From NCBI RefSeq assembly GCF_000195295.1, contig NC_015388.1, forward strand, positions 1,674,001 to 1,738,000: a stretch of DNA of 64,000 nt, in the 5' to 3' direction. Position 1 is the first letter of the stretch; each line of letters starts with the position of its first letter. The position numbers and the translations under genes are program-made. Origin of the DNA: Desulfobacca acetoxidans DSM 11109 (GTDB taxonomy: Bacteria; Desulfobacterota; Desulfobaccia; Desulfobaccales; Desulfobaccaceae). The notes beneath the pieces are model-generated. The model saw only the letters and a program-made list of their open reading frames with translations. It ran no database searches and was not told where the DNA came from. Shown here piece by piece: positions 13,155 to 31,772 of this stretch.

Positions 13155-14684
13155 ATGACATTACAGCGAAAGATGACTAGGAAAGCTTTTCGACAAAGGG
13201 CTGATAGAGTTCTTATGGAGCTCAGTTTGAATGTGTTGCCTTTGGTGGATGAATGTGAAGGAAAGCAGGAGAGACGCCGACAGCGAGCGGCACAGGACCC
13301 CCTCTTTTTTTGCAGGACTTACCTACCTCATTATTTTATTCAACCCTCGGCCGCCTTTCACTTCGAATTAATCCAACTCCTGGAGGAAGGAAAAGAGGCG
13401 TTGTCCCGGAAAAGCTTCTGGAGCGAGGGGAATGGCGGGTTAGGGCGGGCGGTAGTTGTGGCCGTGCCCAGGGAGTTTGCCAAGACCACGCTCTGCGCTT
13501 TCGGGTATGTCCTGCATCAGATCTGTTTCCGGAGGCGCAATTTTATCATTATCGGGGGCAGCAGCAAAGAATCGGCCAGTGATTTGACAGCCTTCATTTA
13601 TCTGGAGCTCCTCTACAATGATCGCCTTCGCCAGGATTTCGGGGATTTGGTGCGGGAGAGCAGTCATGTTGATGATTTCTTGACCATGAATGAGGTGCGT
13701 ATCAAGTCTCGAGGGCGAGGGGAAAGGCTGCTTGGTTTGAAACACCGGCAGCGCCGACCAGATCTGATCATTCTGGATGACGTGGAGGACAATGTCAGCG
13801 TCAGAAATTCAGACGCCGTCCACCGGATTCTGGAGTGGGTGCGGTCGGTATTTTATTCGGGCTTGGATCCACAAGGTACTCTCCTGGTTATCGGTACCAT
13901 CCTCCATCACCAGAGCGCCCTGAATCTGATGTTAACTATGGACGGAAAGCCTTTCAGCCATTTTAGGCGATGCATCTATCGGGCTGTGCTTAACGACGGC
14001 AGATCACTGTGGGAGGCGAGACATCCGCTGACGAAATTACGGCGGCAGAAACAGTTGGTAGGGGCGGCGATCTTCAACCAGGAGAAGATGAATGAGCCGC
14101 TGCAAGAGACAGGGGTTTTCCGCCAGGTGTGGGTTCACTATTTTCACCCGGATACTTTGAAAGATAAAGAGCTGGAGGTGGTTGGGTTTTTTGATGCTTC
14201 GCTCGGGGGTGGGGCAGAGACGGATTATAAGGCGATGGTCACCGTAGGTTTGGATAGGAGAGAGAGAGTTTTTTACGTTATGGATGCCTGGATTCAAAAG
14301 GCGTGGTTGGAAAAGGCCTTGCAGGTGATTGGCCAACGATATGGAACGTATAGGCACCGGGTCATTGGCATAGCAGACAATTCGTTCCAGCGTCTGTTGC
14401 CGTTTGAGTTTAAACGTTGGGGCCCTGAGAACGATATGGTTTTACCGATAAGAAAGCTTGCCTCCGGTGGTTCCAAAGAGGCGCGGATATACAGCCTGGC
14501 GTCTCTTTTGGAAAGGGGGAAAATTCGCTTCATCCGGGGACACTCCGATCAAGAAGTCCTTATCGAACAGCTTCTCTATTTCCCGTCGAAGATGATCAAT
14601 GATGATGGGCCGGATGCCTTGGCAGGGGCGGTAAAACTGGCGCAAGACCTCGTTTGCGGTGACATTGAATGTCAATCAACCTGA
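13155..14684 (+). CDS. Phage terminase large subunit
   Basis: The large terminase packages DNA into phage heads using an ATPase and a nuclease. This 509-residue protein has a deviant Walker A VPREFAKTT near residue 104, Walker B LIILDDVED near 204, the coupling-type RGRGERLLGLKHRQRRPD just before it, a C-terminal RNase H-like nuclease with FFDASLGG near 348, and DDGPDALAGA near 486. Start ATG 13155 was chosen over 13140 because GGAGGGTGA precedes it. Position ahead of a DUF935 portal matches Mu gp28. No small terminase subunit is recognised, unless the upstream HTH proteins serve. Confidence 0.9.
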   Translation: MTLQRKMTRKAFRQRADRVLMELSLNVLPLVDECEGKQERRRQRAAQDPLFFCRTYLPHYFIQPSAAFHFELIQLLEEGKEALSRKSFWSEGNGGLGRAVVVAVPREFAKTTLCAFGYVLHQICFRRRNFIIIGGSSKESASDLTAFIYLELLYNDRLRQDFGDLVRESSHVDDFLTMNEVRIKSRGRGERLLGLKHRQRRPDLIILDDVEDNVSVRNSDAVHRILEWVRSVFYSGLDPQGTLLVIGTILHHQSALNLMLTMDGKPFSHFRRCIYRAVLNDGRSLWEARHPLTKLRRQKQLVGAAIFNQEKMNEPLQETGVFRQVWVHYFHPDTLKDKELEVVGFFDASLGGGAETDYKAMVTVGLDRRERVFYVMDAWIQKAWLEKALQVIGQRYGTYRHRVIGIADNSFQRLLPFEFKRWGPENDMVLPIRKLASGGSKEARIYSLASLLERGKIRFIRGHSDQEVLIEQLLYFPSKMINDDGPDALAGAVKLAQDLVCGDIECQST

Positions 14685-14775
14685 GAACCGCAGATTCGTT
14701 CAACGAGGGGTGAATTACCAGGAAAAACACGGTGGTCAAGGGCCAGCACATCCCGCCGCAGTTGGAAAATGATTG

Positions 14776-14848
14776 CTGCACGGGCTAGAAAACTTGTGCC
14801 ACCGGTAGGTGATTTTCACGGTTTGCGGGTGACCGATAGGTAATGAAC
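14776..14848 (+). repeat. CAGGCT-type repeat with extended tail, copy 1
   Basis: TGCACGGGCTAGAAAACTTG then TGCCACCGGTAGGTGATTTTC and GGTAATGAAC. The core belongs to the palindromic CAGGCT family. The tail (ACCGGTAnnTGATTTTC..GGTTTGC..GGTAATGAAC) is shared only with the copy at 32452, in the same orientation. Confidence 0.7.
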
Positions 14849-14879
14849 TTGAGCTCAGGATTGGCTGGGGGGTGAAAAA

Positions 14880-15131
14880 ATGAGGGATACAGAGGTGGCC
14901 TACTGTGCATCTGGAGTTTTAGCTGAAGTTGAGGAACTGCCTGATAAGGCGAGAAAATTGTGGATGCAAGCGTTTCATGAGGCCTTGGGGAAGTATTTCG
15001 GCGATGTGGAAAAGGCGGAGGCGATGGCCTGGAGAGCTTTTAAGGGTGAGAGAAAGAGGGAGAAGGTGTCGGTTGGAAAGATGGAAGGACTTATTAATGC
15101 CGGGACAGAGCCTATAAAGCGAAAGAATTGA
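14880..15131 (+). CDS. ChaB-like small phage protein
   Basis: An 83-residue protein whose middle, ELPDKARKLWMQAFHEALGK and AEAMAWRAFKGE, matches the ChaB family pattern (LP..A...W..AF..A...Y....A...AW.A). ChaB-like proteins are frequent in Mu-type phage head modules, with no settled function. It lies between terminase and portal, with GGGGGGTGA upstream of the ATG. Confidence 0.7.
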   Translation: MRDTEVAYCASGVLAEVEELPDKARKLWMQAFHEALGKYFGDVEKAEAMAWRAFKGERKREKVSVGKMEGLINAGTEPIKRKN

Positions 15132-15163
15132 TGCTTGGAGCAACAGGAAGAGAAGGGGAGAAG

Positions 15164-16393
15164 ATGGGGTTTTGGGATTGGTTTAAGGGAACGTCAGAGA
15201 AAGCGAAACCGGAATTGCGGCGGATTTCACTCACCTCGATCCAGGATAGGTATAGCAGCTATCCGAGTTCAGGACTTACTCCGGGTAAATTAGCCGCCAT
15301 TTTTCGGGAAGCAGACCAGGGTGATATTCGGCGTCAGATGGAACTCTATGAAGAAATGGAGGAAAAGGATGCACATCTGGCATCTATTCTTCAGACTCGC
15401 AAGGCGGCGGTACAGGGGATGAATTACCGGTTTATCCCATACTCGCCCGAGCCGGATGACGTGCAGATGTCTGAATTTGTCCAAACGGTTATAGAGTCGC
15501 TGGAGTTTGATCGGATCATGACTGATATTCTTGACGCTTTAGGCAAAGGATTCTCAGTCCATGAGATCATGTGGCAGGCAGTAGAAGGGAAGGTGGTGAT
15601 TGAGGATATCCGATGGATCAATCCCAAACGGATCAGTTTTGCCGAAGGCGAGGAACCGAGATTACTGGAGCCGTCCGGTTACAGCGGGATTAAGCCACCT
15701 CCATGGAAGCTGGTGGTGTACCGTTCCTGCCAACGGTCGGGTTCGGTGGTTCGGGCGGGCTTATTAAGAAGTATAGCCTGGGTCTACCTTTTTAAGAATT
15801 ATGCTCTCAAGGATTGGGCCATTTTCAATGAGGTCTTTGGTATGCCTCTGCGAGTGGGGCGATATGATCCGACTGCCTCGATTGAAGACCGGGAGTCTCT
15901 GCGCCGGGCGATAGCGGCTATGGGAACCGATGCGGCCGCCATTATATCTAAAAACACTGACATTGAATTTGTGGAAGCAGGGAGTAGAGCCACCGGTCAC
16001 GCAAATCCATTTATTGCCATGGCTGAGTTTTGCAACCGGGAGATGAGCAAGGCTATCTTAGGTCAGACTCTAACCACCGATGTCGCTCAGGCCACCGGTA
16101 CCTACGGTGCTGCCAAGGTTCACGATCAGGTTCGCAGAGACATCGTTCAATCGGATGCCGACAGCCTGGCTGCTACTTTAAGGATGCAGGTATTCAGGCC
16201 ATTAATAGGCTTTAACTTCGGTTGGGATCATAATCCGCCGTTTCTCCATTTCAGCTTTAAGGAGGAAGTCGATCTGAAGCAGATTTCTGAAACCTATAGG
16301 AATTTAAATGAAATGGGGATTCAGGTTCCCCAGGAACATATTGCTGAAGTCTTTGGACTGCCCAGGGTAAGGCGCGTTGGGGGGGCTGTATGA
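15164..16393 (+). CDS. DUF935 portal protein, Mu gp29-like
   Basis: Portal proteins form the dodecameric ring through which DNA enters the capsid. This 409-residue protein has DUF935 features: DAHLASILQTRKAAVQGMNY near residue 67, DWAIFNEVFGMPLRVGRYD near 218, and a GQTLTTD segment near 297. The ATG at 15164 has AAGGGGAG upstream; a TTG at 15128 is less likely. The 3' end overlaps the next ATG (ATGA). In Mu the next gene would be gp30 (MuF-type minor head protein); it is absent here. Confidence 0.88.
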   Translation: MGFWDWFKGTSEKAKPELRRISLTSIQDRYSSYPSSGLTPGKLAAIFREADQGDIRRQMELYEEMEEKDAHLASILQTRKAAVQGMNYRFIPYSPEPDDVQMSEFVQTVIESLEFDRIMTDILDALGKGFSVHEIMWQAVEGKVVIEDIRWINPKRISFAEGEEPRLLEPSGYSGIKPPPWKLVVYRSCQRSGSVVRAGLLRSIAWVYLFKNYALKDWAIFNEVFGMPLRVGRYDPTASIEDRESLRRAIAAMGTDAAAIISKNTDIEFVEAGSRATGHANPFIAMAEFCNREMSKAILGQTLTTDVAQATGTYGAAKVHDQVRRDIVQSDADSLAATLRMQVFRPLIGFNFGWDHNPPFLHFSFKEEVDLKQISETYRNLNEMGIQVPQEHIAEVFGLPRVRRVGGAV

Positions 16394-17493
16394 AGACTAC
16401 CATCTATTGCCAGATCGGGCCGACGGCCCCGGAGTGGATCAGGATTTTGCCGATGGGGGAAGTCATTTTAGGTGATGGTCGGGAGCCTTTCCGGGTATCG
16501 ACGGCATCTATCGAGCGAATTATGGAGGCCTGGAGGTGGCGCGGCAACGATATGGTGGTTGATTACGAACATCAGACCATCAGTGGCCGAGAGGCACCCG
16601 CAGCAGGTTGGGTGAAGGCGCTGACCTCGGTTTTTGATGGTCTATGGGCCCGGGTGGAATGGACCGACCGGGCCCGAGAGTATATCGAAAAGAAAGAGTA
16701 CCGTTATTTTTCCCCGGTGGTGCAACTGAACGAGTCCAGAGAAGTGGAGGATTTGTTGCATGTAGCTTTGACAAATTTCCCGGCTATAACCAATCTGGCG
16801 CCCCTGGTTCTATCGGTTGAACCGGCGGGGAAAAAGGGAATAACAAACAAGCGAGAGGAGAATACCGGAAATGTAGAGGAAAAAGGTAAAGAGACGGATG
16901 GGGCAGGCAACGGTTATGATACAGGTGCAGAAAGGAAGGAAATGATTGCCGAAAAATTGAAAGTGATTTTAGGACTCCGGGAAGACGCTTCGGAGGATCA
17001 GATTGTAGCTCTCGTGGATGACTATATAAAAATCTCGGGCGGGAAATCAACACCTTTGCCGCCGGAGATTGCCGCGGCGCTCGGTATGGCTGAAGGCGAC
17101 AGCTGTTCCAAAGCGCTTCAGCGCATCGAGTCGCTGCAGGCCGAGGTCAAAAATGCTGCCCGGATGAGAGAAGAGTTGAACGCTATGAAGCTACAGGAAG
17201 CTTTGTCCAGAGCCGAACGATTGATCCAGGAGGCATTAAGCAGCAGACGAACAACTCCGGCAGAATTGCAACAGGCAAACGGCAGTCTGCGTCGTTTGGC
17301 GCATGACGATCCTGACTTTTTTCAGGAGCTGATAATGTCGCGTCCGGAAAATTCGGCCATTCCAGGGCCTCTCGAGCCAGGGGGTAGGTATTGGACGACA
17401 CTGACTCAGGAAGACCGGGAGGTTTGTCAGAATCTAGGTATCAGGCCTGAGGATTTTCTGAAAAATAAAGAGAAATTCAAGGAGGAGAGATAA
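16390..17493 (+). CDS. Mu I-type prohead protease with scaffold region
   Basis: The N-terminal 150 residues match the Mu I protein family (DYEHQTISGREAPAAGWVKA near residue 58, EYRYFSPVVQL near 104, LTNFPAITNLAPL near 127). The C-terminal 200 residues are charged and largely helical with a coiled-coil stretch (LQRIESLQAEVKNAARMREE), as expected for a scaffold released by the protease. It matures the prohead before packaging. It overlaps the portal gene by 4 bp. Confidence 0.88.
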   Translation: MKTTIYCQIGPTAPEWIRILPMGEVILGDGREPFRVSTASIERIMEAWRWRGNDMVVDYEHQTISGREAPAAGWVKALTSVFDGLWARVEWTDRAREYIEKKEYRYFSPVVQLNESREVEDLLHVALTNFPAITNLAPLVLSVEPAGKKGITNKREENTGNVEEKGKETDGAGNGYDTGAERKEMIAEKLKVILGLREDASEDQIVALVDDYIKISGGKSTPLPPEIAAALGMAEGDSCSKALQRIESLQAEVKNAARMREELNAMKLQEALSRAERLIQEALSSRRTTPAELQQANGSLRRLAHDDPDFFQELIMSRPENSAIPGPLEPGGRYWTTLTQEDREVCQNLGIRPEDFLKNKEKFKEER

Positions 17494-17495
17494 CC

Positions 17496-17894
17496 ATGTC
17501 TGCCTGTACGGCTGATAGAGACACGATTTACCGAGAGGGATTGGAACTGGAATATCCGGTTAAGGCTGCAACCAAAATTTATGCCGGGTCGATGGTGGCG
17601 GTAGACAGCACCGGTTATGCAATTCCAGCGGCTAACGCCGCAGGCCACCAACTGGTTGGGGTGGCCCTGGAGCAGGTTGACAACAGCCTGGGGGCCAGTG
17701 GTGCCAGGCAGGTCAGAGTGAGAACGGCCGGGGTTTTTGACTTTACCGCTACCTCCATTAGCCAGGCAAATGTCGGGGCGGAGATGTATGTAGTGGATGA
17801 TCAGACCTTTGATGAGGTAAATCCGGGCCAGGGGATCAGGTGTGGGAAACTGGTGAAGTATGTTTCAGCAACAAGAGGTTGGATAAAAATCTAA
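17496..17894 (+). CDS. Capsid decoration-like protein
   Basis: A 132-residue beta-rich protein starting two bases after the protease stop, with AAGGAGGAGAG as ribosome binding site. Segments KIYAGSMVAVDSTGYAIPA and VRVRTAGVFDFTATS resemble DUF2190/decoration-type proteins that lie between protease and major capsid genes in many phages. The assignment relies on position and this pattern. Confidence 0.6.
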   Translation: MSACTADRDTIYREGLELEYPVKAATKIYAGSMVAVDSTGYAIPAANAAGHQLVGVALEQVDNSLGASGARQVRVRTAGVFDFTATSISQANVGAEMYVVDDQTFDEVNPGQGIRCGKLVKYVSATRGWIKI

Positions 17895-17913: not shown

Positions 17914-18804
17914 ATGATCATCAACCGAGCTAATCTGGCAAGCATGTATGTGGCTTTGAACACCGTCTTCAATAATGCCTTCGAGGGGGCTCCCAGCTAT
18001 CACGAGAAGATTGCCATGCTGGTGCCGAGCAACACTAGATACAACGACTACAAATTTATGATGCAGTTTCCGATGTTGCGGGAGTGGATCGGAGATCGCC
18101 AGATCCGGAATCTTGCCGCGGCTTCATTTCAGATTGCCAATAGAGATTATGAGGCCACGGTGGAAGTGGACAGCAATGATATCGAAGACGATCAACTGGG
18201 GGTCTACCATCCGATTGTGGCTGAGTTGGGCCGCGCCGCCCGGCAGCACCCGGATCTGCTCCTGGCAACGCTGATATCCGAAGGGTTTACCACGCCATGT
18301 TACGACGGCAAGACCTTCTTTGCAACTGATCATCCGGTGGCTTCCGGAACACAGAGCAATAACGGTGGCGGGTCCGGAACTGCCTGGTATCTGTTTGATG
18401 CTACCAGGGCAATTAAGCCTTTCATTTTTCAACGGCGGAGCCTGCCGCGATTAATCAGTCAGGACAGCCCCGATGATGAACATGCCTTTATGCGGAAGAA
18501 ATTTCGCTATGGCGTAGATTATCGCGGAGCGGTCGGGTATGGCCTCTGGCAATTGGCTTATGGCAGCAAGGACACATTGAACACTACCAACTATATCGCA
18601 GCCCGGGCGGCTATGATGCAACTTACCAATGATGAGGGGACGCCCTTGGGTGTGGCCCCGAATCTTCTGGTAGTGCCTCCTGCTTTGGAAGGTCAGGCAA
18701 AAGAACTTTTACACGCTGATTTTATGGGCGTAACCGGAGAGGGTACGAAGACCAACGTCTGGAGAGGAACCGCAGAGGTTCTCGTCGTTCCCTGGCTAAA
18801 GTAG
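17914..18804 (+). CDS. Mu T-type major capsid protein
   Basis: A 296-residue protein beginning MIINRANLASMYVALNTVFN, with FMMQFPMLREWIGDRQIRNL near residue 49, VDSNDIEDDQLGVY near 86 and a typical C-terminal VAPNLLVVPPALE. This fits the Mu gpT family, which builds the icosahedral head with the HK97 fold. GGGAGAGACAGG precedes the ATG. The length is close to that of Mu gpT. Confidence 0.9.
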   Translation: MIINRANLASMYVALNTVFNNAFEGAPSYHEKIAMLVPSNTRYNDYKFMMQFPMLREWIGDRQIRNLAAASFQIANRDYEATVEVDSNDIEDDQLGVYHPIVAELGRAARQHPDLLLATLISEGFTTPCYDGKTFFATDHPVASGTQSNNGGGSGTAWYLFDATRAIKPFIFQRRSLPRLISQDSPDDEHAFMRKKFRYGVDYRGAVGYGLWQLAYGSKDTLNTTNYIAARAAMMQLTNDEGTPLGVAPNLLVVPPALEGQAKELLHADFMGVTGEGTKTNVWRGTAEVLVVPWLK

Positions 18805-18878: not shown

Positions 18879-19196
18879 ATGGCAAATAGTGAAAGATGGG
18901 GAGTCGGATGGCTCCAAATAGTATTAGACGGATCAGGCGATTGGATAAGCAGCAAGGCAATTAAATTTAAGAGTTTAAAGTTTATGCCGTCAGGGGCGGG
19001 AGATGTATTGGTGTTAAAAGAAGTAACCCCGGGCGTCAGTGAGGCGCTTTGGCCACAGATGAAATTGTCTTCAAGCTCTGGCGATCCGGTCGGTTGTTTA
19101 TTCAATGTCAACATTGCCCGAAAATTGAAGATTCCTTATAGTCTCTGTACTTTTGACGATCCAGACAAGGCCGTAATTACTTTAGAATTTGTGTAG
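18879..19196 (+). CDS. Unknown phage protein in the Mu gp35 position
   Basis: A 105-residue protein of no family I recognise, with a predicted beta-rich core (AIKFKSLKFMPSGAGDVLVL). It lies directly after the major capsid gene. In Mu this slot holds gp35. A plain structural role is likely but not shown. Confidence 0.55.
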   Translation: MANSERWGVGWLQIVLDGSGDWISSKAIKFKSLKFMPSGAGDVLVLKEVTPGVSEALWPQMKLSSSSGDPVGCLFNVNIARKLKIPYSLCTFDDPDKAVITLEFV

Positions 19197-19298: not shown

Positions 19299-22226
19299 AT
19301 GTATATTGAGAGCGAGATTAGTTGTATCAGGAAAAGCAGTGTAGCATATCTTAATTTTAAATCCACGACGGTGAATAAATCGGATGTTGATGTTCTGACG
19401 GTGACGCCGACTTTGAGCAGTGCTAAAGGAACCGATACTGTTGTTGATGTCTATTTCACCGGCGGCCACAGCGATCAGGAGAACTACGGCGTCGGGCAGC
19501 ATTTCACCCTGGTCTGCAGCGGCGCCACTATCACCAACACCGGCTACAACACCACTCGGGTGCGTCTGACCATCCCTGCCGGGAGCACTACCAAAGCCAT
19601 CACCATGACCATCGTCAACAACCCGGTGTTGGAACGAGATCGGGTAATCACTATCTCCGCCGCCGGGTTCGGGGCCTCCAAGACCGTCACCATCATTGAC
19701 GATAACGTCCCTGCCGAAGTCAATGTCAAAACCGACTACGGGGCGGTAGGCGACGGGATCACGGATGACACCACAGCTTTCCAAGCGGCTATCGATGCCA
19801 TTAAATCCGCCGGCGGGGTGATCTATATCCCGGACGGCACCTATATCATCGGCAACCTCCATATCGGCCCCCACAACATCAGTTTGGTCGGCCAGTCCAA
19901 GACCGGCACCATCCTGAAACGGAAAGCATACCTCGGCACGGTCGGGATCACCATGGACTACGGCGGCTATCGGTATGAGTCCGCCGTAGACAGCAAGCCT
20001 TTGACCTTCTACAACCTGACGATTGACGGCAACTGCGCCAACCAGGGGGATTTCCATGGGTATGAGCAGGAACATAAATGGACCCTGCTGGTCTTCGGCA
20101 ACGACAACAACTTCACCTATGCCGGTCGGCTGAACTTCCATATGGAGAACGCCGTCATCAAAGACACCATCACGGACGGCATCTCTATCATCAACAACAC
20201 CATTGCCAAACTCTACCAGATGGAGTTTGATGAGTGTTTCCGGGGTTCGACTTCGCTGCTGGGCGGCAACACCGACGTGGAGATGGTCAACATTGAGTGC
20301 AGCGGGACGCAGGAACGGTTCAGACCGGCAGGCGATCCCCTGGGACGGTATACCCCCTCTCTCTCAGCGATGCACATGGAACTCTCGGAGCGGGGGTATT
20401 GCGACGGCACGACCAAGACCGGGTATGCTCAGAACGTCACCCTGAAGAACGTCAACTATAACGCCGGGGGGTTCTGGATCACCTGCGCCGCCAATTCCGA
20501 GATCACCCTGAATGCTAATGACATCTATGTGAACGGCTGTTTTCATCTGCAGGGTCCCAATTCTCAACCCTCTACGGTCTGGGCTAGTCAAGCCTGGACC
20601 TTCGGCGCCATCATCCGGCCTACGACCTATAACGGCAGGAGGTATATCTGTATCACGGCCGGGACCTCCGGGGCTTCCGAACCGACGTGGAACACGGTCC
20701 TGGATTCGGTGACGACGGATGGGACGGTGCAGTGGCGGTGTCTGGACCTGAACATTCAGGACGTGACCATTGCGAACTCGTTGATCAAATCCTATGCCTT
20801 GGAGAACTATGTCGCCTATCTCAACAGTCTGGGGCAGGTGACGTTCAACAACTGTCAATTTGACCTGGCCTACACGAGCGAGGATTTAGGGGATTCAGTC
20901 CTCCCGGCTTATGCCTTCTATGCCGTCTTGGATCAAGGTTCGGGGACGGCCCGGAACGGATTGTTGACCTTTGACCAGGGTTGTTGGTTCACTATCTCTG
21001 CGGAAGACAACTATTCTCAGGACCGGGTTGCCCTGTGGGTTGGCGGGGAAGTCTTGGACGGCACGGCCAATGCTTACGATCATGAAGTAGTGCTGACCGG
21101 CAACTGTGAGATCGACGGGGCTGACTACTTTGATTATGGAATCTACTGCGGCCAGGACGGCCGGAGCTCCGTCAGGTTGACCCTGGAGGACCTGATAGTG
21201 GCAGTGCTGAGTACTGGGTATGCCCTGCTCTTATCGGGGCAGACAGGGCAGTATAACGACATCACGATCAACCATCTGCAAATCACCTCAGGTCGATACC
21301 TGATCTGGAACTATCCGAGAGCCGGAGATATCTTCGTTGACACCGGTTCTAGTCTGGCTAAGGCGCAGAACCGGATCACGGCCGGGACCAACCTCGCAGC
21401 GATTACCATGACCGGCACTTCACGGGCTTTATCCGGCAGTCTGCGTCCGGATTGGGATTATGTGCACGGCCTGGTAGGAGACATCTATACTGATGACGAC
21501 CTGGTGGAATGGCTCTGCACTGCCGCCGGATGGTATGACTCACAGTTGTCGGCGGAGCATCAGGGTGTGTGGTCGCCGGACGGGGTGGCGGTGTTGCAGA
21601 GTGATTCTTTTGAATCCTGGTCAAGCGGCAGCCCGGCGGGTTGGACCAAGGTAACCGGCACGAACAACGTGGTCGCTCAGGGTGAACCGGACACCGGGGT
21701 TAAACATGGCGACTATGCGGTGAAGGTGACTTACAAAGATGCCACCAACGCCTTCTTTTATAAGAACTGGGCGGCAACGAACATCTTGGAGTTCTTCTGT
21801 AAAATCTACCTGGCCGTGCCGTCGGTAACATCATCTTCGGGTGAGTCTTCGATCTTCATCGTAGGCACGAGTGCGGGATCGAGATGTTGTTATATCCTGA
21901 TGCGGATCAACTCCGGGAATGTGGAAGTGAAACTGACGACGCCGGGAAGCGGGGCAAGCTCCTGGCACGTATTGGGCGCCGTAGGGGACGCCCCGAGAGC
22001 GGTGCAATTCTATTTCAAATCAGATACCGTCTCAGGTGCATGGAAACTCTGGTTGAACGAGGCGGCGGAGGGGAGTCCGACGGAACAATCTATGTTCGGT
22101 TTTAATTCCGGCACGAACCAGTTTGGACGGAGTTGGTTAGGGAAATACAACGGTGATGCCGACGCCGGGAACGATTACAGTATCTATGTAGACTGTCTGG
22201 ATATCAGGAACGCATTTATTTCGTGA
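19299..22226 (+). CDS. Tailspike-like protein with pectate-lyase fold
   Basis: A 975-residue protein with three parts. Residues about 20-140 look like a Calx-beta domain ([11 protein letters not shown] at its end). From about 140, [20 protein letters not shown] and [15 protein letters not shown] begin a pectate-lyase-3 right-handed beta helix that runs to about 700, interrupted near 425-485 by a domain with [18 protein letters not shown]. The C-terminal 200 residues look like a lectin-type jelly roll ([15 protein letters not shown] onward). Such proteins bind or cleave surface polysaccharide. Codons are more GC-rich at third positions than those of neighbours, which suggests separate transfer. 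The site between capsid and gp36-like genes is unusual, and the 3' end is duplicated. Confidence 0.8.
22105..22220 (+). repeat. 116-bp tandem duplication, copy 1 (inside spike gene end)
   Basis: This segment, from ATTCCGGCACGAACCAG to ACGCATTTATT, encodes the last 38 or so residues of the spike. It is repeated at 22271-22386 with only four substitutions that I can count. Confidence 0.93.
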
Positions 22227-22264: not shown

Positions 22265-22270
22265 GAATTC

Positions 22271-22386: not shown

Positions 22387-22424
22387 CAGTGGAAAGGAAG
22401 AAAAAGGGAAGAACTTTTCCCTGT

Positions 22425-22476: not shown

Positions 22477-22899
22477 ATGGCCTATTGCACACAGGAAGAT
22501 ATTGAGAAACTGATTCCGGAGCAGGAGTTGGCGGAGTTGACGACGGAGAGCGGCAGCACCCCGGATGCCGACGTGGTGACCGAGGCTATTGCAAAGGCTG
22601 ATGCCGGGATCGACAGTTATCTAGGAGTGAGATATTCAGTGCCATTTAGTTTAGCTCCGGCTGTGATTCGATTCCTATCGGTAGACCTGGCCATCTATCA
22701 CCTTTATACCCGCCGCAGCATTGCCCCCGGTATCAGACGAACGAGGTATGAAGATGCTCTAAAATTTTTACAGGAACTGGCAGATGGAACAGCGGTCATC
22801 CCCGGGGCAGTTGAACGAGAAGCTCCGGCAGATCCTTTTGAATTGACGGATAACGCACGTGGAAGGATTTTTTCCCGGCGGGCGCTGGAGAACTACTGA
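22477..22899 (+). CDS. DUF1320 protein, Mu gp36-like
   Basis: A 140-residue protein starting MAYCTQEDIEKLIPEQELAE, the typical DUF1320 opening, with DAGIDSYLGVRYSVPF near residue 45 and VDLAIYHLYTRR near 70. It is an alpha-helical head-completion or connector-type protein. The ATG at 22477 has AAAGGGGGATGA upstream and gives the family start; a longer frame (from 22258) would add the duplicated spike tail. It overlaps the next gene (TGATG). Confidence 0.88.
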   Translation: MAYCTQEDIEKLIPEQELAELTTESGSTPDADVVTEAIAKADAGIDSYLGVRYSVPFSLAPAVIRFLSVDLAIYHLYTRRSIAPGIRRTRYEDALKFLQELADGTAVIPGAVEREAPADPFELTDNARGRIFSRRALENY

Positions 22900-23691: not shown

Positions 23692-25374
23692 ATGCGATCA
23701 GCTTCTCCCCAATATGAGCAAGAGGAAAAACGGACTCTTTTTGCCAGGCCTCGCCTGAAGGCGGTCTTTCGACCCTTTAAACTGGAGCCGGGACTGAAAG
23801 AGGGGGAGGGGGTTTTTAGCAATACCCTGTGCGGCGGCACCGCGGCAAATCTTTTTATGCAGTCCGGTTATCTAACTTCCGGCTGCTGGGAAGGGCCGAT
23901 AAAACAGGCGTATAACGGCCGGATGAACTTTTTCCGACCCGCCTGGACCGACAAGATCGGATACCTTCATAGTAATGTGCAGTATCGCACCGCGACAGAA
24001 TATTCCGATCTGGGGGAAGCGCCGTGGATGCAACTAGTCTGCGGCGAGGAGGCTGATCTTCAGAAGTATTTCCAATTTAAAATAACGTTTGCCGATCCGG
24101 TGCGGGCCTGGGCCTTGGATAACCCTGAACAGGCGGATGATTGGGCCGCCTACGGCATCGACGGCGGTTCTGACATCTGCCAATCTTATGCTGCCGATGG
24201 CAATTTTCCTGGAGGGATCGAGGACCTCAAATTGGAGGGCGGTCTTACCATTCATGACAACGAGATTATCAGAGGCGGTGTCATCAAGACTGGCATCGCC
24301 CTGGATTTTGCAGACATCGTAGCTGGCAGCCACGAACTTGTATTGGATAACAGAGACAAACAGTGGAATCCCCTGGCCCCCAATTTCTATTTCTCCCAGG
24401 CCCTTTGGTATGACAAGCAGGTCAGCTTTTTTTCCGGCTACGAGTTGCCCAGTGGACAGGTGGGATGGCAGGAACTTTATATGGGGCAGGTTCAAAAATT
24501 AACCGTTGCCCACAGCCATTACCATTATCATACTGCTGAGATAAGATCAAATGATCTGATCTGCAGCCTGTTAAAGAGGAAGATCGGGGCACCAGGAGGG
24601 GACGGCATCAGGAAGCCTTTTCTGCGGGGCTATTATGTCCTAAATGCGGACTGGCAATCGACGGAGCGGCCATTTGCCGGTGCAGCCGCCAAGACGGGTG
24701 CCGGATCTGCGGCCATAAGTACTATCGATAGCGATTATTACAATAACTCGGTCGATACCTTTTATCGGCTCAAAATAGAGACTGCCGGAGAGGTCGGAAC
24801 CGCTACCTTCTCCTGGTCTAAGGATGGCGGCTGTACCTGGGAAAAATCCGGATTGAGTACCGCGAATCAAGCAGCCCCCTTGCATCTGGAAAATAACCTG
24901 TATGTCTATTGGACCGCCGGGTCTGGCAATGACTTCGAAGAGGGCGATTACTGGGATTTTGTCGGCTATGTTAGAAGAAACCATTATCTGCTGCCCGGAG
25001 CGCCGTTTCAAGACATTACGGCGGTCTACGCCGATGGGGAAAGAATTGACCGATATACGGCTGATCTGGCAACCGGAAAACTTGTCATCCAGGGTCCCGG
25101 TCGGAGCCACCGCGCCCGCATAGTAAAGGACGATATCACCCATCCGGCTGATATCATAAAAGATATTATTACTGAAGTTGGCCTCGCAGACCGGTTGCGG
25201 CTGACAGACTATCAGGTCTGTAAAAGCGTTACGGCCGGATACAATATCGGCGTCTGTTTTGAAAATGTTAATGCCCTGTCGGCAATCCAAAAAATCTGCG
25301 CCAACTGTCTCTATGAATTGTGGATTGAAGCTGGTGAAATCAGGATGCAGGCTTATTTAGGAGAGTCGGGCTGA
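23692..25374 (+). CDS. Large phage structural protein, function unknown
   Basis: A 560-residue protein starting one base after the previous stop. It has no family I can name with confidence. The middle is beta-rich with several aromatic runs (HSHYHYHTAEIRSNDLICSL). The C-terminus, DIIKDIITEVGLADRLRL to ELWIEAGEIRMQAYLGESG, resembles the end of tail-hub or tail-tip proteins, where a short helical domain precedes a small beta unit. I infer a tail or baseplate part from position and this resemblance. Confidence 0.6.
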   Translation: MRSASPQYEQEEKRTLFARPRLKAVFRPFKLEPGLKEGEGVFSNTLCGGTAANLFMQSGYLTSGCWEGPIKQAYNGRMNFFRPAWTDKIGYLHSNVQYRTATEYSDLGEAPWMQLVCGEEADLQKYFQFKITFADPVRAWALDNPEQADDWAAYGIDGGSDICQSYAADGNFPGGIEDLKLEGGLTIHDNEIIRGGVIKTGIALDFADIVAGSHELVLDNRDKQWNPLAPNFYFSQALWYDKQVSFFSGYELPSGQVGWQELYMGQVQKLTVAHSHYHYHTAEIRSNDLICSLLKRKIGAPGGDGIRKPFLRGYYVLNADWQSTERPFAGAAAKTGAGSAAISTIDSDYYNNSVDTFYRLKIETAGEVGTATFSWSKDGGCTWEKSGLSTANQAAPLHLENNLYVYWTAGSGNDFEEGDYWDFVGYVRRNHYLLPGAPFQDITAVYADGERIDRYTADLATGKLVIQGPGRSHRARIVKDDITHPADIIKDIITEVGLADRLRLTDYQVCKSVTAGYNIGVCFENVNALSAIQKICANCLYELWIEAGEIRMQAYLGESG

Positions 25375-25430: not shown

Positions 25431-25724
25431 ATGCTGAATCAGTTCTTAAATAAGTGGATTGAATTGGATGGCCGAATGAAATCTTTGGTTTCAGAGATTG
25501 GGTTGGCCAACCATCAGTTTAATGTTCGCGTTAAGGATATCAATGAGTTGTTGAATAGATTAGCGGAAGATTTCACCCTGGCGTTTTCTTCTCTAGAAAA
25601 CCAAACCATGGATCTGGAGCGTGAACTGGGGGGGTTGAGAGATGCAGCCTCAGAGTCACTATTGGCCCAGGCCGATATTACCGGTGGACAATTAACGGAT
25701 ATTTTTAATCTAAGGATATTTTAG
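25431..25724 (+). CDS. Small helical phage protein
   Basis: A 97-residue protein made largely of heptad-like helices (INELLNRLAEDFTLAFSSLE, MDLERELGGLRDAAS). It may be a trimerisation or chaperone-type partner of the large protein that follows with a 1-bp overlap. No family recognised. Confidence 0.55.
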   Translation: MLNQFLNKWIELDGRMKSLVSEIGLANHQFNVRVKDINELLNRLAEDFTLAFSSLENQTMDLERELGGLRDAASESLLAQADITGGQLTDIFNLRIF

Positions 25725-28700
25725 TGGCAAACATTCAATGGGCCAGGGCCGGCCAATTCAATTGGACTTTCGATGCCATGGGCGGGACACCGCTTATGGA
25801 GGCCGTGCACGGTAATCGGTCAGGGATCTCCACTTTTGTTGGGGAAGATGGGGCGATTATCCTCAAAAATCCTCTGCTCGGCGGCGGCCAGGTTTTTTAT
25901 CTGCGGGGAGTTTGGAAAACCGACGCGGTTTTTCCCTGGAACGGTTTCTGGGCGGAACCGGAAAGCGGTGATCTGACCGATTATTTTGTCGGTGGTACCT
26001 GGCAAAATATGGGCAACCAGACTGTTATTATTCTGGGCCGACCACTTCCGGCCGGTACTGCGGTGCAGATTTATTATATCTATTTTACCGGTGAAAAAGC
26101 CGAAAAATACGCGGAATTGAATTCTTATCCATGCATACGTCCGGCCTGGCGCGGGTGTGCTGATTATACCTTTGACTTTGCTGTGGACCGGATTTTTGAT
26201 CTCATGGCTATTCTGTATTTTGCCGGTCTGGCAAGGAATATGGATAACCGTTCGGTGATTGAGTTTCTTTGGGAAAGTTATTTTGACAGGGCTGCAAGTG
26301 CGGTACCGCCGTTGGTCTTCGACCGATTTGAACGGACGCGCTATGACCGCGGCCAACACCTGCTCTATCGCGGTTCCAGTCAAGGAGAATCTGGTTTTAG
26401 CCATTTCGATATTGACCTGGAGCCTGAAACCCAGAACCGGGCGCTGCACGTGATTTTTTCGGAGTGTAACAGCGGCAATGCTTCGGCTTGGTTGGGGTAC
26501 GGTCTCAACTGGGATCTTGGCAATCCTCCCTTTAACGCTATAGACCGGCTATTTTTTTCGTACTATGGCAACCGTTGCCAAACCAGGGTAGCGAATTGCA
26601 ATTTCGTTTCTTCGGGGGGAACAGCCGAACTCTGCCTTCAGGAAGACTATAACGAGGGGCAGGCGTGCGTTATGCTGGTAATTATCACGAAAGGCGGTGA
26701 GTTAGGCGAGGCAGAATTCACTTTTGAGCTCTATCGGATGAATGGCGCCGACCCGGAGATGAAAGAGGAAGGACTGCTGACCTCTCATAATCGGATCAAT
26801 CTGCATTACGGTGTGCAAGTTTGGTGGGAATTAGGATCGACTTTCGTAGTCGGAGACTATTGGTGTGTTACCCTGGGCCGGGTTAGGAGCCATCCCCGGC
26901 GCTTGCAGATCATTTTAAACGATTCTGAACCCGGCGCTTGCGAGGCCTGGGGGCCGGAGCATACTTTTGTCCACGCCCTGCCAGACCGTTATGACCGACT
27001 GACCGATTTTGAAATCCCTTTAACCAGCTTCTGGCGTTTGGACAACGTTATCTATGACGGCGATAGGAGGCGCACCGGATGGAATCCTTGGTGTACTTTA
27101 GGGGCCAGCCAACCCCAGGGTATAATGTCGGTTCAGGATCATGAAGAGGAGCAGGAGATTGAAGGAGAGGTCTTCTACACTCAGGCTCAGCTTGCCTGGG
27201 ACCTGCCGGAAGATGCTTCTGCCCTGGGATTTTGGACCGGCATCAATACCGCTGAGGTTAATTCCGGTGGTCAGAGCACCTTAAATTTCCTCATCCAGCC
27301 GAACCTTGCCAACCTGGAGCAGATCTCACTCACGGTCAAAGTGAAAGACAGTCTGGATCACTATTTTATCTGCACGGGGGTGAATATCCCGGCAGGGGTT
27401 TGGAGCCGGGTTGACCTCAGCTTCAACAACTTTATTCCAGACATATCCGGTCATATATTGACCCACCCGATTAAAGTGGTGGATATCGGCCTCTGCGGAC
27501 CAGACATTCCTTTAGACGGAAGCCTGTATCTAACCGATGTCAAGTTCGGTTCCCATCGGGTATTTTCCGGCTCCCGATTGCGTCTGGTGGAATTTAAGCA
27601 TCATGAGCCTACGGTAAAGCTTCCAGCCTATGAATTGTGGTTGGATAATGTCGGCTTGAATCTGACGGCTTATGACCATTACCCACACTGCCCGCGGCTG
27701 GCGATCTCGGTTAATCCTTATGGCGTCAATCCCTGGCGGGGGCCGACCTTGATTCATTACGCTCATCCATTAGGGGCGTGGCTGGTTGACCGCCATGACG
27801 TGAGGCAGAACCACATCAGGCTCCATCGGGACGCCCAGGACGAGTTCAATAACCGCTGCGGCGGCGTTAAGGGTCCGATAGTGCCGGTGCATACCCGCAA
27901 CGATATCGAAAATATTGCTCTGTGCGGGGAAGAAAACTTTAATGAATTTTGCTGGTGGCCGAAGTATCGGGACTATGGCAAACGGCTTGCTTCCTGGCTA
28001 TTCAATGGTTCTCTGCAGGACGCCACCGGAAACTACGAACTTACCTGGTCTTCAGGTTCTCCGGTTTATACCACGGGAATCTGTCAACCTAATGATACTG
28101 CGCTGCATTTCGACGGCAGCGGCAGCTATGCCGGTTACTATCCCGGAACCGATTTTCGGTTAGGCGATGGCGACTTTTTTATCGAGGCAGTAGTCTCTTT
28201 TGATTCTCTGGTAAACTCGGTCATCTGCGGGATGTGGTATGAAGCAGCGAATCAAAGGTCCTGGATGGTTTATTACAACAATTATAACCGGAGCATTTCC
28301 TTTTATTATTCCACCAATGGCACAAATATCCTGGCAATTCATGGGACAAGCAATCTTATCACGGCGACCGGCGTATTTCATCATATCTCAGTCATAAGGT
28401 CTGGCGAAACCATATACCTCTATATTGACGGGAATCCTGCCGGCAGCGGTGATATCGGGACGGCCGGTTTATATGAGGCAACCGCCGATTTCAGAATTGG
28501 CAGGTCGTACGCTGGCGCTAATTTATACGGAGATATTGATTACTTACATATTTCAAAAGATATTGCCCCTGATGCCGCTGAGATTGCCGGGCGTTGGCAG
28601 ATCATCCAGGGATTGCAGAACGGGTCCGACTATCCGGAAGTGGGACATGGGCTCGGACAGTATTGGGCCTTTTATCGCTTGGCGGAATATTTCTGCGTCA

Positions 28701-29902
28701 GCAATGACGCCGGGGCCTGGGATATCCTGGATAACTGGCTGTCCTGGCTGGAAACCTTTGTAGTGGCCGACGGCTTGGGGTGGAAATTTCCGGTGTGGTT
28801 TTCGGAATATGGCTTTACCTATGGCGACTACGATCCGGGTGCTGCAGCCGCCATAGTCATCGGGTGTCTCTATATCTACATGCGGAAGGGGGATAGCCGG
28901 GCCCTCGGGTTAGCGCAGAACATATTAGCCGATCTCCGGCTCTATCGGGCTTCAGGGGATTATGGGGGATATCTCTACAAATCCGACTATCACTATGCCT
29001 GGATGAATGCTTTGGTGGCTCATGCGTTCGGCCTGGCGGTGGCGGGCCGGGCCGGGTCAGCCTACATCTATCCCTACACCCCGGATGATGAATCGCATTT
29101 TACGGCCATGATGAACAACTTCTGGGCCATGAGCGGCGACACCAAACCTAATATGCTGAATTCTGACGGTATTCCTTTTAGCTATGTTGAAGATCTGGAT
29201 GTGTGGGATTACGCCCCACATTATCTTTTTATGCGGCAGATGGGAAGCCTAGAAGCGGTGGTGCTCATGGCCGCAGTCGCTCTGGATTGGGGGCTCCAAA
29301 CTGGCAGCTGGCATTGGTTTGAGCAACTGATTGGTTTTATTATTCTCAATAACCGGAAGATAATCCCCGAGAATCAGATCCGTTTTATCCAATCCACCTA
29401 TGATCTGACTTTGCTGAAGAACCTGGGCAAGGTTTTTTTTGCTGATTATCGGCAGAACCAGAGCTCTTATAGGGAAATAGCCGATGAATCGACGATTGAC
29501 CTAATCGGATGCCAACCGGTAGAAATCCATTTAGAGTATGGACAGCCTGTCATAACTGAGGATCCCGGCATGGCTGAAGCCCTGGCCCGCTTGTTGATTG
29601 AGAGGTTCTCTTCGCCTAAGGAGCTCGTTGATCTCGAAACCTGGATGGAGGGGGCCCGCATTGAATTGAAAGACAACATTCTGATTAACTCGAAGTTTCA
29701 CGGGTATGATAACGAACCATTTGTCTGTTATCGGAAAAAGATTGACCTCGATAAAAAAAGAATCTCGCTCCAGCTTGTCAGAAATGTCAGGTATCTGCCG
29801 GCCTGGGGAGAAGATCTGGAGGGGGGTGAATATGGCTCGTATGCGATTGATACGGCAGTAGCCTCTGATCTTCATTGGAATTTCAGAACCTATGCATTTT
29901 AA
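25724..29902 (+). CDS. 1392-residue tail/adhesin-like protein with LamG-type domain
   Basis: Starts at GTG 25724, overlapping the previous gene by one base. Residues 1-160 look like an attachment domain (TFVGEDGAIILKNPLLGGGQ). About 755-950 is a LamG/concanavalin-like jelly roll: ASWLFNGSLQDATGNYE, then LHFDGSGSYAGYYPG, FHHISVIRSGETIYLYIDGN and YGDIDYLHISKDI. About 970-1210 is helical and Trp/Tyr-rich (AWDILDNWLSWLETF, YHYAWMNALVAHAFGLAVAG), reminiscent of an alpha/alpha-barrel glycosidase without an assignable active site. The last 180 residues resemble a phage tail-protein terminus. A host-surface glycan binding role is inferred. Confidence 0.65.
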   Translation: MANIQWARAGQFNWTFDAMGGTPLMEAVHGNRSGISTFVGEDGAIILKNPLLGGGQVFYLRGVWKTDAVFPWNGFWAEPESGDLTDYFVGGTWQNMGNQTVIILGRPLPAGTAVQIYYIYFTGEKAEKYAELNSYPCIRPAWRGCADYTFDFAVDRIFDLMAILYFAGLARNMDNRSVIEFLWESYFDRAASAVPPLVFDRFERTRYDRGQHLLYRGSSQGESGFSHFDIDLEPETQNRALHVIFSECNSGNASAWLGYGLNWDLGNPPFNAIDRLFFSYYGNRCQTRVANCNFVSSGGTAELCLQEDYNEGQACVMLVIITKGGELGEAEFTFELYRMNGADPEMKEEGLLTSHNRINLHYGVQVWWELGSTFVVGDYWCVTLGRVRSHPRRLQIILNDSEPGACEAWGPEHTFVHALPDRYDRLTDFEIPLTSFWRLDNVIYDGDRRRTGWNPWCTLGASQPQGIMSVQDHEEEQEIEGEVFYTQAQLAWDLPEDASALGFWTGINTAEVNSGGQSTLNFLIQPNLANLEQISLTVKVKDSLDHYFICTGVNIPAGVWSRVDLSFNNFIPDISGHILTHPIKVVDIGLCGPDIPLDGSLYLTDVKFGSHRVFSGSRLRLVEFKHHEPTVKLPAYELWLDNVGLNLTAYDHYPHCPRLAISVNPYGVNPWRGPTLIHYAHPLGAWLVDRHDVRQNHIRLHRDAQDEFNNRCGGVKGPIVPVHTRNDIENIALCGEENFNEFCWWPKYRDYGKRLASWLFNGSLQDATGNYELTWSSGSPVYTTGICQPNDTALHFDGSGSYAGYYPGTDFRLGDGDFFIEAVVSFDSLVNSVICGMWYEAANQRSWMVYYNNYNRSISFYYSTNGTNILAIHGTSNLITATGVFHHISVIRSGETIYLYIDGNPAGSGDIGTAGLYEATADFRIGRSYAGANLYGDIDYLHISKDIAPDAAEIAGRWQIIQGLQNGSDYPEVGHGLGQYWAFYRLAEYFCVSNDAGAWDILDNWLSWLETFVVADGLGWKFPVWFSEYGFTYGDYDPGAAAAIVIGCLYIYMRKGDSRALGLAQNILADLRLYRASGDYGGYLYKSDYHYAWMNALVAHAFGLAVAGRAGSAYIYPYTPDDESHFTAMMNNFWAMSGDTKPNMLNSDGIPFSYVEDLDVWDYAPHYLFMRQMGSLEAVVLMAAVALDWGLQTGSWHWFEQLIGFIILNNRKIIPENQIRFIQSTYDLTLLKNLGKVFFADYRQNQSSYREIADESTIDLIGCQPVEIHLEYGQPVITEDPGMAEALARLLIERFSSPKELVDLETWMEGARIELKDNILINSKFHGYDNEPFVCYRKKIDLDKKRISLQLVRNVRYLPAWGEDLEGGEYGSYAIDTAVASDLHWNFRTYAF

Positions 29903-29905
29903 GCT

Positions 29906-29968
29906 GAGAGCCGGGAGCCGAGAGCCGAGAGCCGGGAGTCGGCTCACGTTCAACGGCTCACGTTCAAA
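29906..29968 (+). repeat. Heptamer array after the 1392-residue gene
   Basis: Nine exact 7-nt units: GAGAGCC, GGGAGCC, GAGAGCC, GAGAGCC, GGGAGTC, GGCTCAC, GTTCAAC, GGCTCAC, GTTCAAA. The units GGCTCAC and GTTCAAC are reverse complements of GTGAGCC and GTTGAAC in the array at 22223. It starts four bases after the stop codon. Confidence 0.93.
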
Positions 29969-30017
29969 AGCGGTGTCCCACGTTGGCTATTTTCTCATTT
30001 TTTTAGGAGCGGCAACC

Positions 30018-31073
30018 ATGGGTTTAGCAGACCTACCACAGAGTAAATGGGGTGGCGGGACAGGCCGTCAGGTCATACTCAAAGCTGATTTTGACTCTAT
30101 CGAAAGGGCCATCATTGAGGCCTTCGAATTGAATTATCCACCGGATCTGGTTTGGATTGACGCGGTCCGGGTACAAGTGCCCTCAACCGCCGATTGCCGG
30201 GCCAGAATCATGATGTCGGGATTTCCATCGCCGCTTCATACGGGCCAGATGGTTGACGGTTCCCTGGCGGACGGCAGATATCGGGAGAATAGCAGTGAGG
30301 CCGTTATGGATTTCGGCGTCCCGGCCCGCTTTTGGGGTAATGAAAAAGCCAATCAGTGGTACTGCGTCTATGCTATTGCGGGGGCCTCTGATACGAGCTT
30401 CACGTTGAAGGCCATGCCGGTGATGCGTTATGCTTCGCAGGTGGCCCAGACTATCACCCTGCGCAACAATGGCGACAGTGCGGATATCGGATATGGCCTT
30501 ATCAGCAACGAACTGCAGAGTTGTAAGATCCTGGTGTTGTCAGGGGCCTCGAAGGGATTAGTACGCCCTATTATAGCGAATAACAGCGACAATGGTAGTG
30601 GCGGGACCCTGACATATTCGGGTTCGGTTCTGACGATGGCTCGGGGGGATTGGCTCATTGTCCTGCCCAACACGAATTTTCGCTATTTAGGTATGATATT
30701 CAATGACTCCTCCAGTAATCTGCTCCCGTTTATGAAAAATAAAAATTCGGTTGCCTGGGGTTCTCGCCGATTGATCGTTTCAGGCGCCATAAACGGTTAC
30801 CAGCTGCTGGATTTAAGTTATTATGTTCCGCCTTTAGCCAAAAGATTGCATGGTCTGGCGACCGCGACGAACGGTTACGATGTCAAGGCGGCTTTATCAT
30901 ACGACGGCGTTGAGCCGACGGTATTGGTGCATCTATCCCCACCGGCGACAGATTTTATCGGATCGCGTGGGGCCGGGCAGTTTGACTGCCAGCTTTTGGA
31001 TGGGAATAACCTGTATCTTTCAAATGAGAACACTGCTCAGCAACTATTCTGGGCGGTGGGTTGGGAGGAATAA
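30018..31073 (+). CDS. Phage-module protein, unknown (possible tail fibre part)
   Basis: A 351-residue protein from the ATG at 30018, which has TTAGGAGCGG upstream. The frame is open further left to 29892 but that part is the heptamer array, so I reject the longer start. The sequence is beta-rich with repeated Gly/Ser/Asn segments (GTLTYSGSVLTMARGDWLIV) and no recognised domain. Position suggests another virion or receptor-binding component. It ends TAATG with the next gene. Confidence 0.55.
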   Translation: MGLADLPQSKWGGGTGRQVILKADFDSIERAIIEAFELNYPPDLVWIDAVRVQVPSTADCRARIMMSGFPSPLHTGQMVDGSLADGRYRENSSEAVMDFGVPARFWGNEKANQWYCVYAIAGASDTSFTLKAMPVMRYASQVAQTITLRNNGDSADIGYGLISNELQSCKILVLSGASKGLVRPIIANNSDNGSGGTLTYSGSVLTMARGDWLIVLPNTNFRYLGMIFNDSSSNLLPFMKNKNSVAWGSRRLIVSGAINGYQLLDLSYYVPPLAKRLHGLATATNGYDVKAALSYDGVEPTVLVHLSPPATDFIGSRGAGQFDCQLLDGNNLYLSNENTAQQLFWAVGWEE

Positions 31074-31243
31074 TGAATCTTTCGGGAAAGAAAACTTATT
31101 TTGTCGCGGGTTTGATTGCAGCAGCGGTTTTTGCCCGGATAGCCGGGTTTATTGACGATCGAACCTACGAGGCCATTCTGGGGATTTTGGGGGCCTTGGG
31201 GTTGGGGGCGCTGCGGGCGGGAGTGACTAAGGTATTACAATAA
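31073..31243 (+). CDS. Small membrane protein, holin-like
   Basis: A 56-residue protein with two short hydrophobic stretches (YFVAGLIAAAVFARIAGFI and ILGILGALGLGALRAGV). Size and place near the end of the phage module suggest a holin or a phage membrane protein. No endolysin gene is recognised nearby, which weakens a lysis role. Confidence 0.5.
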   Translation: MNLSGKKTYFVAGLIAAAVFARIAGFIDDRTYEAILGILGALGLGALRAGVTKVLQ

Positions 31244-31508
31244 TAGATAAGTCTGTAAAAGTCATTCCCATTTTAGTGTAATTGTTATTCTTGCAAAATT
31301 GCCCTTAAGCTGTGGAAATAAACTAACAGTGGCTTTATGGCCTCAATCTGTTCAACTAGAAACTCGGAACTGTATTCTCCTGGTAATGCCAATATGAGGC
31401 GAATGGTTATCAGAGTCAGCCCGGCAACAAAATTTTGAGTTTTTGACTTTTTGCGAGGCTATCAATCGAAGAATAAGATTAGGAGAGAGAGGCAGGTGTA
31501 TTCTTTCT

Positions 31509-31772
31509 ATGGAATTAAGAGAATATATCAATTTTTTAATGGCGGTCATTGGTGTTTTAATGAGTCTGGTTGGTTTTTTATTTTGGCGGATATTGCATCG
31601 GATTGAGGATAAATTGGAAGAACTACATCGGCTGGCTCATAACTGTCGGGAGTCGCTGCCGATACGATTTTTAGGTCGCAAAGAATTCGACGGGTATCAA
31701 TCAGATATAGATAAATTATGGTATGCAGTGAACTACCACCAACATGATCAGGCAGGAAGGGTGACGCGATGA
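31509..31772 (+). CDS. Small membrane-anchored helical protein
   Basis: An 87-residue protein with one N-terminal membrane helix (INFLMAVIGVLMSLVGFLFW) then a charged helical tail (RIEDKLEELHRLAHNC). The layout resembles phage spanin or lysis-accessory proteins, without sequence proof. The start ATG 31509 was chosen because it places the membrane helix at the N-terminus; an upstream frame start at 31443 adds non-typical residues. Confidence 0.5.
   Translation: MELREYINFLMAVIGVLMSLVGFLFWRILHRIEDKLEELHRLAHNCRESLPIRFLGRKEFDGYQSDIDKLWYAVNYHQHDQAGRVTR

Follow-up and report, generated by a model that had tools for sequence, protein, structure and literature searches.

A phage-derived locus of the Desulfobaccales, most likely a gene transfer agent from a Mu-like siphovirus, and its shortened tail in Desulfobacca acetoxidans

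Gene transfer agents (GTAs) have been defined (PMC9662315) as particles built from proteins of Caudoviricete origin whose genome is endogenized in the host and inherited vertically, which deliver mostly random host DNA to other cells, and whose head size does not allow their own genome to be fully packaged. Here we analyzed a window of 64,000 nucleotides, positions 1,674,001-1,738,000 of the one-contig 3,282,536-bp genome of Desulfobacca acetoxidans ASRB2 (G000). The window holds a unit of about 20 kb with Mu-type phage head genes, running from a divergent helix-turn-helix (HTH) gene at 11692 to about 31772 (coordinates are in window numbering, position 1 being its first letter). A first-pass annotation of these letters had left a decayed prophage, a domesticated GTA-like particle and a new short-tailed arrangement side by side as explanations. 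We consider it probable that the locus encodes a domesticated phage particle, vertically inherited since at least the ancestor of the Desulfobaccales and most likely a GTA, whose tail was cut in Desulfobacca.

The described GTAs RcGTA (Rhodogtaviriformidae), BaGTA, Dd1, VSH-1 and VTA resemble this locus in that caudovirus head and tail genes are fixed in the chromosome, co-diversify with the host and are under purifying selection, and in that genes for replication or integration are lacking; Dd1, VSH-1 and VTA were set beside the locus by these traits. RcGTA has a short tape measure, as in the locus. Unlike these GTAs, the locus carries head genes of the Mu I and T families (Mu-like_gpT, Portal_Mu), and no HK97-type capsid family was matched at E<1 in Pfam. 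Homology with the structural genes of RcGTA was not found at the sequence level: the capsid profile matched only solved capsids of the GpT type, and the portal matched Mu-like portals. The small terminase (TerS) of the GTA type has no N-terminal DNA-binding domain (PMC6854486), a trait that is not a defining feature in PMC9662315. TerS of our locus's relatives, of about 156-161 amino acids (aa), appears to retain an HTH-like N-terminal pattern and has weak DNA-binding and TerS PHROG matches. Three defining features were observed: proteins of Caudoviricete derivation (portal, protease, capsid, terminase and connector by their matches, the tail terminator by its fold), endogenization (chromosomal, single-copy, free of mobility genes and adjoining ftsH in 13 of 17 genomes) and co-diversification with the host (congruent trees, synonymous divergence (dS) equal to that of rpoB, and deletion scars). 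Membership among the GTAs is assigned provisionally on these three.

Mu-like siphoviruses (RC1/RS1-type phages and L185, L188, L199 and others in IMG/VR) have a capsid homologous to that of the locus, and the IMG/VR relatives also share its tube, distal, hub and fibre proteins. They differ in being mobile, whereas the locus has no mobility genes, and in the tape measure (the largest downstream open reading frame, ORF), which is 566-2244 aa long in related phages (median 955, n=40) but 246-280 aa in the locus; moreover, 29 of 46 phages have MuF, and no locus does. Three phage-type loci, L174 (G028:C3) and L185 and L188 from IMG/VR, carry the same hub/fibre module with tape measures of about 1000 aa and represent living relatives of the locus. 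Cryptic Mu-like prophages resemble it in having Mu-order head genes without a transposase; unlike them, it has a single orthologous place, a host-congruent tree and selection across the order. D. acetoxidans was reported in a prophage survey to have more than one predicted prophage (PMC8146710), and the locus may have been flagged automatically there. A GTA for Desulfobaccales, or one from a Mu-type head, was not found in the literature searched, which misses many subscription papers.

In all 29 Desulfobaccales genomes there is either the locus, whole or in pieces, or the scar of its deletion. Portal_Mu was found in 25 of the 29, in which the locus is single-copy, and in none of 11 genomes sampled outside the order; the further Portal_Mu match seen in each of G014, G021, G027 and G028 lies in another kind of locus, of Mu-like prophage type. 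The genomes without a portal retain only the distal half (G001), the locus in pieces (G005), or scars (G009 and G013). In the scars, the ftsH block is adjoined by the regulator gene HTHa and by what is left of the 1392-aa fibre, a C-terminal stump; the stump is fused to the start of a second regulator gene, HTHb, in G013 and is followed by the locus-end gene in G009. The locus or its scar adjoins ftsH-folP-cdaA-ybbR in 13 of the 17 genomes whose contig reaches that far (the window, G003-G009, G012, G013, G017, G026 and G028), and these cover both families.

A tree of five head genes agreed with that of RpoB at the level of genera, for the group (g5,(g10,(g4,g9))) and within g6 (G009 was left out of this comparison). 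In species pairs with unsaturated dS, the dS of the locus was about that of rpoB; for G012/G014 it was 0.65 for rpoB, 0.67 for the large terminase (TerL), 0.70 for the major capsid protein and 0.71 for T431, the probable tail tube protein. The ratio of nonsynonymous divergence (dN) to dS was mostly 0.05-0.25 (extremes 0.036-0.52), and 0.05-0.11 for TerL in most pairs. Among 395 genomes sampled from the phylum, T431 was found in 12 members of the order and in one other, G187; the G187 locus is of phage type, has MuF and carries an unrelated terminase. The locus T431 proteins formed one clade (100%) against 69 phage-labelled sequences, and the sole phage-labelled sequence within it, L196, is a locus contig. 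IMG/VR lists L196 (IMGVR_UViG_3300026945_000001) as viral, yet the contig is a copy of the bacterial, domesticated locus; L276 may be another.

Because of the synteny, host-congruent trees, purifying selection and deletion scars, we take the locus to be domesticated and not an ordinary prophage; its domestication across the order is as good as shown. The domesticated option of the first-pass annotation thus drew strong support from the 28 relatives compared, and the search it had proposed for the same cluster in related genomes returned the conserved flank and the low dN/dS given above. An ordinary Mu-like prophage, acquired by D. acetoxidans and decaying gene by gene, would explain why tail genes, TerS, MuF and transposase are missing and TerL is fast, as well as a duplicated spike fragment and a second, orphan capsid gene at another site of the genome. 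It is nevertheless very unlikely, being contradicted by vertical descent across the order: two families have an orthologous locus in the same chromosomal position, with congruent trees. Moreover, every remaining ORF of the D. acetoxidans locus is open, with proteins 26-40% diverged from those of the sister species, and capsid and portal, with dN of 0.18-0.27 and dS above 1.4 or saturated, gave NG86 dN/dS well below 1 (NG86 and codon-position differences replaced YN00 for saturated G000 pairs). Decay remains conceivable only as a recent process in a locus already domesticated. Equally hard to credit, or slightly more so, is a Desulfobaccales-specific phage lineage that repeatedly reinfects and integrates beside ftsH. 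Related phages with the same hub/fibre module do occur in these genomes (L174) and in IMG/VR (L185, L188), but the locus has no integrase or transposase, is single-copy per genome, and matches the host in topology and dS. Further, the G009 and G013 scars are internal deletions, not clean excisions, and G008, with an RpoB almost identical to that of G013, retains the full locus (on two contigs).

We examined the tail genes of the relatives. The genes of tube-bearing relatives run from HTHa, HTHb, TerS, TerL, portal, a small lipoprotein-like gene, protease, cement, capsid and variable genes on to gp36, gp37, T431 (431 aa), 127-aa and 112-aa proteins, tape measure, 121-aa distal protein, g560, g1392 and g393, in this order. 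This is a full short-tailed siphovirus-type set without transposase, integrase or MuF. T431 occupies the position that the major tail protein has in related phages and gave a weak tail PHROG match (2.5e-5), suggesting that it is probably the tail tube protein; its AlphaFold model had a pLDDT of 47, and its profile had no PDB match. The 246-280-aa protein would be the tape measure, judging by gene position and weak tape-measure PHROG matches (0.0026, 0.028), and the 127-aa and 112-aa proteins, whose genes are adjacent and often overlap, are chaperone-like.

Neither T431 nor the tape measure was found in a search of G000-G003. In D. acetoxidans, residues 4-138 of a 263-aa protein align with gp37 (Gp37 Pfam match, 6e-8) and residues 146-263 with the 121-aa protein, the genes of which are separate in relatives and about 3.3 kb apart. 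The same head-to-tail fusion is present in G002, at a contig edge. The G001 and G003 contigs break in the tail region, so that direct evidence for the tail deletion comes from G000 and G002 only. The AlphaFold model of the fusion (pLDDT 81) gave Foldseek matches of its N-terminus to the Mu terminator (E=7e-6) and to lambda gpU (9e-6); a terminator fold is what the structure prediction suggested for this protein has now returned. Profiles of the hub, the 121-aa distal protein and TerL had no usable solved relative. These data indicate that the tube, chaperone and tape-measure genes were deleted in the genus Desulfobacca and gp37 was fused to the distal protein, a second species sharing the fusion. 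In the simplest geometry, the terminator and the distal ring would be joined with no shaft between them, and the D. acetoxidans particle, if still made, is probably stub-tailed and tubeless.

The first-pass annotation fared accordingly. The terminase, ChaB, portal, protease, decoration, capsid, gp36-like and gp37-like genes that it had read in Mu order are all present and open by their Pfam and PHROG matches; transposase, integrase and MuF are lacking from the locus, and relatives of the tail tube and tape measure from the 3.28-Mb genome, as would not be the case for a mobile Mu-like prophage. Its short-tailed arrangement holds for the genus Desulfobacca, by way of tail-gene deletion and fusion; tail genes hidden from the eye within the cluster, which it had allowed for, proved instead to be deleted here and present in relatives. 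A decayed prophage is unsupported for the locus as a whole, though further loss (TerS) and relaxation (TerL) did occur in D. acetoxidans itself. Its gene list was right, but the unit begins further left, with HTHa and two tandem HTHb genes, and among its gene models gp36 starts at 22477, a 60-aa holin-like gene (31061-31243) had been missed, and the 263-aa 'gp37-like' protein is the two-protein fusion.

We then considered the packaging genes of D. acetoxidans. A relative of the order's TerS was found nowhere in its genome, and is present in G002 and G003. At 245 order-invariant sites, TerL carries 38 unique changes in G000, 4 in G002 and 6 in G003; the corresponding numbers (G000/G002/G003) are 4/3/7 for portal, 1/2/3 for capsid, 1/0/1 for protease and 0/0/1 for cement. 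TerL of G000 is 60 and 59% identical to its sisters, which are 77% identical to each other, whereas capsid identities among the three are 74, 74 and 73%. That a phage gene had replaced TerL was rejected: the G000 protein stays within the genus clade (99%), on an end branch of 0.99 as against 0.19 and 0.30. In D. acetoxidans, then, TerL alone is accelerated, and capsid, portal and protease are not. Residue 412 (14373-14375) is Ala in G000 but the Glu of a GVEDN motif in all other locus TerL compared, and this Glu also occurs in the commonest phage motifs; by analogy with TerL nucleases in general, it is presumably a nuclease metal ligand. The D. acetoxidans particle is possibly packaging-deficient.

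Three states would fit this strain: its particle may lack a tube and package unspecifically, it may be mostly empty and bear spikes, or the locus may be in early decay. For D. acetoxidans alone, a GTA-like locus domesticated in the order but now non-functional and decaying is a serious, if less probable, alternative: TerS is lost, TerL is accelerated with Glu412 changed to Ala, and the window lacks the amidase that G002 and G003 have, but all ORFs, the fusion among them, are intact and the unique changes in capsid, portal, protease and cement show no excess. It is conceivable, though rather unlikely, that the GTA was converted there into a tubeless, mostly DNA-free, spike-covered capsid, with shell, portal, fusion, hub and fibres selected and motor and shaft discarded. 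Unlikely too, and a little more so, is a particle domesticated for a use that is not DNA transfer, one that bears enzymes, acts against bacteria or degrades matrix. The very large fibre, LamG and pectate-lyase spike proteins speak for such a use, as does a shell that is constrained in D. acetoxidans while the motor is not; in the rest of the order, however, purifying selection acts on TerS and TerL, and this points to DNA packaging there. Because this motor is constrained outside D. acetoxidans, we regard GTA function as the likely use of the particle, packaging and transfer being predictions from gene content.

Several points weigh against a GTA with a cut tail. A Mu-type head could in principle contain the whole locus of about 20 kb, contrary to incomplete self-packaging; synteny fails in G002, G010, G015 and G022; the fusion rests on one complete genome (G000) and one contig edge (G002); and the loss of TerS with a fast TerL in D. 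acetoxidans could equally mean early decay.

We favor the following course for a GTA that arose independently out of a Mu-like siphovirus. Across most of the order, a capsid would be built, filled with host DNA by the TerS/TerL motor, and given a very short tail, with a tape measure of about 250 aa, that bears the hub and large fibres; particles would leave by means of the lysis genes and deliver their cargo, the locus encoding nothing for excision, integration or self-replication. In the Desulfobacca ancestor, removal of the tube, chaperone and tape-measure genes and fusion of the terminator to the distal tail protein would have set hub and fibres directly beneath the connector. D. acetoxidans afterwards lost TerS, and its TerL came under relaxed constraint, with capsid, portal and protease still constrained. 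Its locus probably still yields a stub-tailed, spike-covered particle, whose DNA packaging would be weakened or unspecific.

Table 1. Features of the D. acetoxidans locus and its host flank, in window numbering
Feature	Position	Strand	Evidence
Host flank ybbR-cdaA-folP-ftsH	5767..10540	-	NCBIfam FtsH, DHPS, CdaA; kept adjoining locus across order
HTHa, divergent AlpA/HTH_17-type regulator	11692..11889	-	Pfam HTH_17 7.5e-11; same-place orthologue in relatives 59% identical
HTHb copy 1, regulator	12393..12605 (about)	+	tblastn 6e-20 against relatives' HTHb
HTHb copy 2, regulator	12807..12992 (about)	+	tblastn 1e-18; TerS expected next, absent
TerL, large terminase	13140..14684	+	PHROG 38 2.4e-75; no Pfam match
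ChaB-like small protein	14880..15131	+	Pfam ChaB 2.1e-7
Portal (Portal_Mu/DUF935)	15128..16393	+	Pfam 1.2e-109; phmmer to solved phage portals 3.7e-63, 9.2e-56
Mu I-type protease/scaffold (Mu-like_Pro)	16390..17493	+	Pfam 1.1e-87
Cement/decoration protein	17496..17894	+	Pfam Phage_cement_2 4.7e-6
Major capsid protein (Mu gpT)	17914..18804	+	Pfam 1.6e-121; family profile against solved GpT capsids 4e-87
105-aa small protein	18879..19196	+	69% identical in G002
975-aa pectate-lyase-fold tailspike	19299..22226	+	Pfam 4e-16; PHROG tail spike 4e-11
gp36 head-tail connector	22477..22899 (ORF called from 22258)	+	Pfam 3.1e-30; PHROG 195 3e-37
Fusion protein, 263 aa: gp37 tail terminator (1 to ~140) + 121-aa distal protein (~145 to 263)	22899..23690	+	
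560-aa tail hub-like protein (g560)	23692..25374	+	37-44% identity across order; hub role suggested by position
97-aa protein	25431..25724	+	none seen in relatives' loci
1392-aa fibre/spike with LamG domain (g1392)	25724..29902	+	Pfam 3.1e-12; 45-50% full-length in relatives
393-aa distal protein (g393)	29892..31073	+	54-63% in relatives and related phages
Holin-like, 60 aa	31061..31243	+	homologues in locus across order
109-aa membrane/coiled-coil protein, locus end	31443..31772	+	35-55% in same-place relatives

Some features of the locus and its surroundings need comment. The 975-aa tailspike is an insertion in D. acetoxidans, the same place in relatives' loci having no homologue. In the 213-aa gp36 ORF, codons 1-73 duplicate part of the spike's C-terminus (repeat pair 22102-22225 / 22268-22391, 94%), and for that reason we place the true start of gp36 downstream of them. 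Between ftsH and HTHa, most relatives (L050, L038, L042, L151) have a gene for a CheY-like receiver domain, a possible regulator; its place is occupied in the window by a dihydroorotate-dehydrogenase-like gene (10695-11618). An amidase-type endolysin gene follows the holin-like gene in G002 and G003 (L030:928-1557, L031:7890-8461), and none was found in the window. A 20-nt direct repeat (19/20; 12720-12739 / 32632-32651) brackets the locus at a distance of 19.9 kb, and was rejected as an attachment site; it is probably due to chance, because pairs like it turn up in further 20-kb stretches of these genomes and one of its copies falls within a cNMP-binding gene.

Elsewhere in G000, an orphan second gpT capsid gene (2455435-2456325; L148/L149) encodes a protein of 297 aa with 70% identity to that of the locus; next to it stands no more of the protease than its C-terminal scaffold part, among otherwise unrelated genes. 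A cluster of large proteins in G003 (G003:C35, L129) resembles an extracellular contractile injection system, with hub, spike and baseplate-like genes, and two of its genes recur at a contig end in G002 (G002:C27, L130), adjoining ATP synthase genes. Weak g560-like matches in G002 and G003 were rejected as the locus hub, since they represent a repeat domain in a contractile-injection-type cluster.

These results add a probable, independently domesticated GTA lineage, derived from Mu-like siphoviruses, in an environmentally important order of sulfate reducers, with the evidence of vertical descent that most GTA candidates lack. The order also offers a natural reduction series of a domesticated particle, from a full short tail to a tubeless fusion and on to TerS loss with a relaxed TerL. 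The in-frame terminator-distal fusion would provide a concrete and testable route from a siphovirus-type tail to a stub tail.

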